Assembly: GCA_028753945.1 (NCBI GenBank)
Contig: JAPNXP010000015.1
Coordinates: forward strand, 3,348,001-3,412,000
Source of the DNA: Hexactinellida sp. DTS-2022
Lineage: Eukaryota > Porifera > Hexactinellida
DNA length: 64,000 nucleotides
Direction: 5' to 3'
Part shown: positions 50,546 to 53,792 of the stretch, piece after piece
How the letters are laid out: the number at the start of each line of letters is the position of its first letter
How positions within the stretch are numbered: the first letter of the stretch is position 1
Notes under the pieces: generated by a model
Told to the model about the DNA's origin: nothing
The model's database searches: none
The model's input: the letters and a program-made list of their open reading frames with translations, nothing else
Translations under genes and position numbers: made by a program

Positions 50546-52012
50546 TTAATTACCTTCAGTAGCTAGCTCTTCTAACTGGTGAGCTATTTTCTGCATTTTA
50601 TAACGTCGTATTTTCTCCTTTCTCTTTTCCTCTCTCGCTCTATCGAACAGTAGACACATCCTCCGTTTCATGTCGATAGCGCGTTGGTATTCATTCGCGT
50701 AATATGCATACACGTCTTTATAGCCTTTGCGGTAGTATAGTTTCTCTTGTTCCAATTGGTAGGCTCGCTCGTTCGCGGTTTTTAGCTCCGAGGAGAGATC
50801 GCGGAGATTCGACCTGAGCCAGCTCATTTGCATTGCGTATTTCTGACTGTACTTCATACGTTTGTGTTCGAGACTGTACTCCAGGCCCTGGTTATCTCTC
50901 AGCACTGAAGATAGGGCCGAGCGGAGCTTTATGACCGCTTGGTACCAGTCTCGGGATCTGTCGTAGAGCTATGTACAGGTAGGGTAAATGTGTAAATCCG
51001 AAACTATATTTTTTCAATGTTACTTGAATTTCAAATATTATTGCGTTTTTGGCATCTTATGTGATGAACCAATTCGACAGTGAAAACTTCAGTAGATCGG
51101 TTCATTATTTCTTAAAGTGTGGGAAAGTATACTGCCGCCTTAACCAAAGGAATTATCCAGGAGCCGAGACGCTCCTTTTGGAGTATGATTTTGGGGAAAT
51201 TTTAATTTAGGAGCGCGAAAATTTGGATTCTCTCCTATACCGTAACATTAATTTATGATTTAGGCGTACGAAAATTGGATCAGACCAGGATTAGGAGCGT
51301 ATTTATAAATGGCTGTTAATAGTACACTGATGTTAATTCATTGTTTGTGTTATAGGTAAGCGTAGGGAGATAATACTGTAGTTAGTTGCATAAATTTTAC
51401 AAAAAAATTGTATGCAAATAATTATAGATAGTAAACTCCGTTTAATTAATCTAATCAAGCACTTAATTAGGTCATCTTTTCCTGGAACAGAATAATGCCA
51501 TAAACTATATAAATATTTTAGGTTAATTGGGTGAACAGCTTAATGGGGTCAAATCTTGCATATTTTTGAATAAAGTCTGGTTTGAATGGTTAAAAATTAA
51601 AAATGCTAATTAACCAATTATTCGATTTGGGAAAAGACTTTGGAGAGTTGATTTTTCTCCAAAAAAAATTAGTTAAATAAGTAAATAAGCTAATTAATAA
51701 ACTAATCAGTTAACCTACATGCTGATTCTCTGCTATAAGGTGTCCGTTTACTCTCCCCATCTCCTGTACGCACTTAATCTTCTGCTTAGTTTCGCCAACA
51801 AGAATGCTCTCCAGTCTCTGCTGGGCCGCGGCAGCTCTCTGGTAGAGCATCAGTCCCGTCTCGCGACTGAGACCGGAAATAGCGCCTGGGGGGGCGTAGT
51901 GGTCTGTGGGGCAATCCTCGTCACTGGGTTGTTCGTCTGGAATGTAGTAGCAGTACTGCTTGCTGTGTCGCTTCTTCTTCTTGGATCTCTTCTTGTCGTC
52001 TTTCTCACTCAT
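50546..52012 (-). CDS. Orphan coiled-coil protein, two exons
   Basis: Exon 1 52012-51719 (donor GTAGGT) and exon 2 50968-50546 (acceptor ACATAG) join in phase 0 to 238 residues. The N terminus is strongly basic (KDDKKRSKKKKRHSK), followed by a Pro/Tyr-rich patch (YYIPDEQPSDEDCPTDHYAP). The rest is predicted helix and coiled coil (SLEHKRMKYSQKYAMQMSWL; NERAYQLEQEKLYYRKGY; REEKRKEKIRRYKMQKI). The stop overlaps a GGTAATTAA that could also serve as a donor, so the gene might continue. I do not recognise the family. The intron carries a family D repeat. Confidence 0.55.
51151..51321 (+). repeat. Dispersed repeat family D, copy 2
   Basis: About 170 bases aligned with 33862-34051; the two differ mainly by scattered substitutions, including GGAGTATGATTTTGGGGAAA in this copy. 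It lies in the intron of the orphan coiled-coil gene. Confidence 0.75.
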
Positions 52013-52244: not shown

Positions 52245-53792
52245 TTAGATGTTATCAGTCTTTTGTCTCAACAGATTTTCCCTTCTTACTCGTAGCATCC
52301 AAGCCTCGATAGGAGCTTCACTCGCGGTTTTCAACACCTCGCACTTGTCAGATTCTAGCATAGCCTCTATCTCTGCTTTAACAGACAAAATGCGATCTTT
52401 CGCCACTTTATAAACACATTCCTTTCTGCGAATTCGAAGCAAGAATTCCCTCTCCTCAGATTCTTCTTCTAGAAAAACGCGAAATTCCTCACCGAAAGCT
52501 ATTTGCCTAGCATGGAACAATAATCTCATTACAATATACAGTATCTTATACTGTTTATCCTTATTAGGTGCGGTTGTTTGCACCTCCCATTGCCTCAGCA
52601 ATTTAATTCCGCGACTCCCACAAGCGTCGCCTAAATATTTCCTAACAACTTCTCGCGAAATAACGTTATTCCGCAGTTCCACTAAACTACTGTATTCTTC
52701 TGTCGCGTAATGTATCGTGTCTTTATGCAGGAACAAACTCTCCACCATTCGCGGGTCCCCGGACACCAATAATTCGCAGTACCGGTATAACTCACATAGT
52801 GTGAAATCCGGTTGTTCGGAAGTGCGGTTTTTAATAGTTAGCGGTGGCGGATGGAAGGAGAGACACTTTTCAGTGTCTCCGATGTACACAACGAACATGT
52901 CCAGATCCGAGGTGGCTGTATGCAGATTGTATCTGTGGCTACCGAAGGGACACGCTAGCATAATCCTACCATAGTCACTAACGTGAGTAGTGAGTCTGCT
53001 CCATAGCGCTTCTGGGGATATGGCCAACTCGGTGGAGGATAGCTTGAAAAATACAGGATTCTCGTAACCCAATTTTCGTTCTTCTGTTTTAATAGTGTCT
53101 TGTTCGCATAGTTTTAATTCTGCATCCATTAAGTCGCAAATATTCTTACCTGGAAATGAAGATTATTAAATTCATATACAGTAGACTCTCGTTAATATGA
53201 ACACGGATAAGGCGAAATATCGGTTAAGGCTAACAAGGTTAATTTCCCTAGCCTATACAAATATATGCGAACGATTCGGATAAAAATAAATATCGACGGT
53301 TCCCTGGATTCTACTGTATAACAATATAAATCCTATTGTAATTGTGAAATGGAAATTAGTTGTATGATTACCGATTGTATGTTCGACTTCTTCCAAATTC
53401 CTTCCTTTATTTACAGACTTTACAGACTCCCCATCTCTCATCATAAACTCTTCTGTTTTTGTAAAAGACAATCCATTCCTGAATCTGTCAGTATACGTCA
53501 CGACCCATTCAATCTCGAATGTGTACCACTCTCCCACACCATTCCTATGGACAGCTGTGTCGCTAGGCGCGGTAACTACCCTGGCATATCCCTCCCATCC
53601 CTTACTCCCGTTAACACTGAACAGTAGAATAACAGGACCGGTGTTAAAAGCCGCGAACAGCGTATCACGTGGCTGTTCCTCTATATTTTCGTGCTTTGGG
53701 ACAGCCCAAACGCGGTTTTCTTGACACTTAGTGAGGTTATCAAATGTGTCACATTTCGCGATGAAATACCTAACAAGCACATTCTCAGCCAT
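52245..53792 (-). CDS. YTH-domain / nucleotidyltransferase fusion protein, two exons
   Basis: Exon 1 53792-53372 and exon 2 53149-52245 join in phase 1 to 441 residues. Residues 5-150 form a YTH domain: VRYFIAKCDTFDNL, NRVWAVPKHE (cage Trp W29), GPVILLFSVNGSKGWEGYAR, FEIEWVV (cage Trp W96), and VNKGRNLEEVEHTIGKNICD, the last crossing the splice junction exactly as the YTH C-terminal strand should. From about 160 the protein is a polymerase-beta-type nucleotidyltransferase (COG3541-like): CPFGSHRYNLHTATSDLDMF has the G-S (210-211) and D-x-D (222, 224) catalytic pattern, then YCELLVSGDPRMVESLF and a helical C terminus. YTH domains bind N6-methyladenosine in RNA. An NTase would add or transfer nucleotides. 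Predicted role: m6A-directed RNA tailing or modification. The fusion is new to me. Confidence 0.85.
53179..53316. mobile_element. TA-flanked MITE in the YTH-NTase intron
   Basis: 138 bp, start CAGTAGACTCTCGTTAATAT, end GGATTCTACTG, TA on both sides. It shares CCCTAGCCTATACAAAT with the copy at 39087. It makes up most of the 222-base intron. Confidence 0.8.

Follow-up and report, generated by a model that had tools for sequence, protein, structure and literature searches.

One gene of a hexactinellid sponge joins a YTH domain with an altered pocket to an RlaP-type nucleotidyltransferase, in a widely conserved and apparently undescribed fusion

Whether two separate open frames belong to one gene, and what a protein combining a YTH fold with a nucleotidyltransferase (NTase) would do to RNA, are the questions raised by a locus in the genome of Hexactinellida sp. 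DTS-2022 (112 Mb, 18 contigs). The locus lies at 53792-52245 on the minus strand of a 64,000-nt stretch of contig JAPNXP010000015.1, the whole of which is termed the window. In six-frame translation it appears as two separate open frames, while removal of a 222-nt GT...AG intron (53371..53150, minus strand; exon 2 from 53149) yields a joined open reading frame of 441 residues. Homology, rather than the splice sites, confirms this predicted structure as one spliced gene, which constitutes a fusion of known parts, widely conserved and apparently undescribed. Its features are the following:

53372..53792, minus strand: exon 1, from the start codon through residue 140 to the first base of codon 141; it holds most of the YTH domain
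53150..53371, minus strand: intron, phase 1, GTAATC...TTTCCAG, 32% GC; its junction is matched by Oopsacas minuta P0001
52245..53149, minus strand: exon 2, with the last YTH helix (by analogy with the P0001 model), a linker, the RlaP nucleotidyltransferase and the stop
53124..53771, minus strand: YTH domain, residues 8-149, interrupted by the intron; assigned by PF04146 and the fold of a homologue
52341..52967, minus strand: RlaP/COG3541-type nucleotidyltransferase domain, residues 202-410; assigned by PF10127 and PHROG nucleotidyltransferases
52899..52943, minus strand: NTase motif G210-S211-x(10)-D222-x-D224, near-invariant in homologues
52806..52808, minus strand: D255, candidate third metal-binding carboxylate by inferred role; all 59 homologue rows readable at this column have Asp

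By themselves, the splice sites carry little weight, because 64 GT/AG pairs in the stretch, the proposed pair being one of them, would yield an open fused frame. In the proposed join, the end of exon 1 (..ATCG) is followed by the start of exon 2 (GTAAGAATATTTGC..). The Oopsacas minuta protein P0001, a single annotated protein, is 68% identical across 98% of the window protein and matches it at the junction, where ..AIGKNLCNLL.. and ..TIGKNICDLM.. are aligned between the two. In the open reading frames P0002 and P0003, from contigs of 563 and 434 kb, the upstream residues immediately before GKNIC differ, as would be expected if an intron lay at the same place. Moreover, in the predicted P0001 model the junction falls inside helix 137-167, which starts in the YTH domain, so that exon 1 alone would be devoid of the YTH end and exon 2 alone would start inside the domain. 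The YTH homology itself also crosses the junction: the spliced protein matches the Pfam profile (PF04146) with E=1.4e-17 and 64.2 bits (cut-off 22.1) from position 2 to 135 of 135, whereas unspliced exon 1 gives 60.3 bits and reaches position 129.

A pair of neighbouring genes, or frames joined in error, would agree with the two frames of the six-frame translation and with the abundance of GT/AG pairs able to join them. This is opposed by the single Oopsacas protein with the same junction, by the location of the junction in the last YTH helix of the P0001 model, by the mere 222 bases between the exons, where a scan for six poly(A)-type hexamers gave no match, and by the relatives, as 46 of the 84 homologues of one search hold both Pfam domains (precomputed annotation), the rest being mostly single-domain pieces. 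The two-gene arrangement was rejected on the joined 441-residue frame, the single Oopsacas protein and the junction inside the YTH helix, and is considered barely conceivable. Hence, the in-phase joining at 53371/53150 and the junction-spanning YTH homology of the original prediction stand, and its proposed survey for YTH plus COG3541 in one protein found such proteins in number. What needs amending is the impression of a unique architecture: many deposited animal proteins carry both domains, most of them uncharacterised. As an observation in its own right, the first bases of exon 2 (53149-53142, minus strand, GTAAGAAT) resemble a strong splice donor beside the acceptor.

The second half of the spliced protein matches the Pfam domain RlaP (PF10127) with E=1.2e-12 and 48.5 bits against a curated cut-off of 23, and contains the polymerase-beta (Pol-beta) motif G-S-x(10)-D-x-D, GSHRYNLHTATSDLD in the window protein, in line with the COG3541-like NTase predicted at the outset. 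Predicted-fold and sequence matches of this half lead to viral and phage nucleotidyltransferases (PHROG). The structure prediction of the first half, which was run on the Oopsacas homologue P0001, returned a YTH fold with YTHDC2 as top structural match, and the solved-structure matches shown for the fold are all YTH chains. An NCBIfam profile search of the protein gave chance-level matches only.

Conservation of the active site was followed through three homology searches, which need shared 5-residue words and are not exhaustive in coverage. These yielded 97 distinct proteins, one of which (P0024) is an ordinary fungal YTH protein. Sixty-six of the 97 were aligned, with the window protein left out, and counts are given per row with a readable part. 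Over 62 rows the NTase motif retains G in 62, S in 61, the first D in 61 and the second D in 62, and the third D is present in 59 of 59. Since these catalytic-type residues are near-invariant, the NTase half is expected from its sequence to be an active enzyme. The same residues, kept also in three divergent Logan rows, oppose the idea of a catalytically inert NTase half in a protein acting as scaffold or decoy. In favour of that idea, inert copies appear to occur in this genome: the only other RlaP frame found, a 633-residue two-copy protein (C18:1658205-1659557) with 26% identity in each matched stretch, lacks by eye the G-S motif in its first copy, while the second has G-S and D-x-D. On balance, an inert enzyme is highly improbable. 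The YTH search found no YTH domain on contig C18, which carries this paralogue.

A further question concerns what the YTH half recognises. The canonical pocket for N6-methyladenosine (m6A) consists of Trp, Trp and Trp/Tyr/Leu, exemplified by W377-W428-L439 in YTHDC1 and W411-W465-W470 in YTHDF1, while N363, N367 and S378 touch the base (PMC6112328). In the present family, pocket residues were assigned by sequence offset rather than by coordinates, over 54 homologue rows with a readable YTH part and, separately, the window. The first pocket Trp is found in all 54 rows and in the window; the second, in the loop, is present in P0012 only and missing in the window. An aromatic residue occupies -7 relative to Trp95 in 51 rows, the remaining three having Phe at -8, and 53 of the 54 rows feature Trp at position 66, where YTHDC2, CPSF30 and the YTHDC1-like protein of the same genome have Phe. 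Between -20 and -9 an aromatic residue occurs somewhere in 17 rows, without a common place except for Y/W/Y at -15 in P0011-13. At the N367 place (position 19), 53 rows hold Ser (38), Ala (7), Asp (2), Gly (2), Asn (1), Gln (1), Pro (1) or Val (1). The window combines the first Trp with Trp89 at -7 and Asn19 at the N367 place and, judged by offset, lacks the Trp, Trp, Trp/Tyr/Leu set of a canonical reader. The loop between the YTH strands, which sits at the canonical second-Trp site, ranges from 26 to 215 residues and is long in molluscs. By eye, the same genome also encodes a YTHDC1-like protein with a canonical-looking loop, plus YTHDF-like exons.

These residues bear on whether the protein, as a canonical m6A reader, tails or repairs RNA that carries m6A, which is possible but doubtful. 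Such a reader would agree with the YTH homology and fold, the invariant first Trp accompanied by an aromatic residue at -7 or -8, the Asn of the window, the possible full pocket of the divergent P0011-13 with their Y/W/Y, and the MT-A70 exons of the genome (three matches). It is opposed by the loss of the second Trp in the window and 53 of the 54 rows and by Ser or Ala at the N367 place in 45 of 53 rows; that Asn is Ala, among other changes, in Mmi1, a YTH protein without m6A binding (PMC6112328). Asn19 would nevertheless favour recognition of the base by the protein of the window itself and speak against a full loss. The family thus appears to comprise a YTH fold with an altered pocket, for which the name m6A reader is not yet justified. 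Of the m6A-finding enzyme originally envisaged, the single gene with YTH and NTase is supported, and the m6A recognition stays conjectural.

RlaP operates alongside RNA ligases, with a predicted role in putting back nucleotides ahead of the ligation step (PMC7824862). From this role and the joined RNA-binding YTH domain, the simplest reading is that the protein binds chosen RNA and extends its 3' end, and a probability of about 0.5 is assigned to a two-domain enzyme of RNA ends, the YTH domain capturing RNA for 3' extension by the RlaP half. The YTH half would capture single-stranded RNA in a rebuilt pocket, in which one Trp is kept, the second aromatic wall would be shifted by one residue and the canonical second Trp is gone. 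While the captured RNA is held, the RlaP half would extend its 3' end by one or a few nucleotides, either to repair it ahead of ligation or to give the RNA a tail marking its fate. What is bound may be m6A, a different modified adenine or RNA without modification.

The genome would offer partners for ligation and writers of the m6A type, as indicated by RtcB (515 bits), by four matches over cut-off to RNA_ligase-family (PF09414) exons on C1, C7, C6 and C12, and by the MT-A70 exons; none of them is linked to the YTH-NTase gene. By eye, the PF09414 exons at C1:8988196, C7:423395 and C6:3881790 are RNA-ligase-like, the last resembling the T4 Rnl2 type, and the C12 match was discarded as an RNA ligase as it reads like a DNA ligase IV-like protein. 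PF17720 (RLIG1) gave no match in this genome nor in any control genome, so its absence is not shown.

Several points weigh against an enzyme of RNA ends. The activity of RlaP is itself a prediction in the literature (PMC7824862). Furthermore, the activity and substrate of the present protein, like its spliced transcript, are predictions from sequence and homology, no solved NTase structure is among the structural matches shown, TM-scores of the NTase half to viral NTases are modest, and RtcB and RNA ligases are widespread without a link to this gene. Pol-beta NTases can also have proteins or small molecules as targets, and their superfamily includes enzymes making small nucleotides. The NTase half might accordingly modify a protein or make a small nucleotide, in an AMPylation-like or second-messenger activity switched on by the YTH domain as RNA sensor; cGAS, a CD-NTase (PMC12098830), counts for this explanation as well. 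It is opposed by the nearest family matches, which are RlaP and phage nucleotidyltransferases, and by a PADLOC search that returned, up to E 0.1, only the REase_II model (18 bits) and PDC-M05A (12 bits), and is held to be unlikely.

By record name, two-domain proteins come, among other sources, from Corticium, oysters, mussels, scallops, clams, freshwater mussels, gastropods, chiton, Lingula, Owenia and Lineus, which we take to represent another sponge (Corticium), molluscs, a brachiopod and worms. No vertebrate or insect is among the named matches of these non-exhaustive searches, and absence from vertebrates, insects, cnidarians or echinoderms does not follow from word-based searching. P0028 represents 350 member sequences; its 454-residue frame lies on contigs no longer than 1744 bases, as if derived from cDNA. 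The three short-contig Logan proteins P0011-13 have identities of 28-31%, with about 96% of the length covered; YTH exceeds its cut-off in all three (35-38 bits), RlaP stays below 23 (22.1, 13 and 18 bits) and NTP_transf_2 passes in P0013 only (25 bits). Their host may, at a guess, be a protist. P0081 (EukProt) looks by eye like an NTase with an apparent YTH tail.

In a family tree of 34 of the 97 homologues plus the window, the window protein and Oopsacas minuta stand in a four-row set at 100/100, consistent with a glass-sponge source, and P0011-13 form their own group (100/100) at a distance from the animals; a program warning concerns the meeting of long branches (P0081 with P0011-13). A YTH tree of 17 homologues, P0024, the window and two YTH frames of the same genome separates 18 fused rows from three others with an unstarred support of 79/93. 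An NTase tree of 21 homologues and the window, rooted on the two copies of the C18 paralogue, gave p-AU 0.388, with outgroup branches of about 10 changes per column, and a single origin of the fusion is neither shown nor rejected by it. Two peptide patterns matched 18 stretches in viral contigs, none a confirmed relative; one pattern matched two stretches in prokaryote genome contigs, likewise none confirmed. Since RlaP is known from prokaryotes, with matches in 3 of 14 control genomes, the latter result shows only that no close relative was met. It is tentatively suggested that an ancient eukaryotic family, predating the sponge-spiralian split and perhaps animals, recognises modified or damaged adenine with its rebuilt pocket and directs a phage-type repair NTase to extend that RNA, which would couple the reading of an RNA modification straight to end repair or tailing.

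Database records name the relatives uncharacterized protein, nucleotidyltransferase or YTH domain-containing protein. A literature search, which covered mostly open papers and not the original RlaP description, found no description of a YTH-nucleotidyltransferase fusion, and a term search of the main text of the Oopsacas genome paper (PMC10280926) found neither YTH nor nucleotidyltransferase. If true, a conserved fusion of this kind would mean RNA reading with a built-in enzymatic outcome and the long retention of phage-type RNA-repair parts in animals. Known animal YTH readers act via recruited partners or, in YTHDC2, a helicase. Owing to the oyster, mussel and scallop homologues, the fusion is testable in tractable animals. 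In its neighbourhood, a CLPTM1 gene (399 bits) lies upstream on the same strand, 210 bases away, and a short lysine-rich predicted protein without Pfam match up to E 0.01 lies downstream (51710-52012, minus strand).

Among known systems, RlaP (PF10127, COG3541), the Pol-beta NTase of phages and bacteria, shares with the window protein a common profile, the G-S-x(10)-D-x-D motif and the sequence and fold matches to phage NTases, whereas the window NTase is fused to YTH, resides in an animal genome and has no ligase gene beside it. YTHDC2 likewise ties a YTH fold to an RNA enzyme, its helicase; in the window the partner is a nucleotidyltransferase and the canonical second pocket Trp is missing. 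The YTH domain of CPSF30-L (Arabidopsis 5zuu; Toxoplasma 7ng2) heads the profile matches to solved YTH domains (E 1.8e-15) and has in common the Trp-Ala at the first pocket Trp, but its loop carries a Trp and a Tyr at -8, with a pocket role suggested by offset, and it is combined with zinc fingers instead of an NTase (PMC7641849). Mmi1 shares the YTH fold and, with most homologues, has no Asn at the N367 place, unlike the window itself; it binds unmodified RNA through another surface (PMC6112328). Coral eTudor-YTH and DCD-YTH are also unusual eukaryotic YTH fusions (PMC7641849), and the word stem of nucleotidyltransferase is absent from the available text of that paper (term search). Finally, YTH-APOBEC1 of DART-seq carries an RNA-acting enzyme on a YTH domain as an engineered deaminase construct (PMC11469752, PMC9220071), whereas the window gene constitutes a natural fusion with an NTase.
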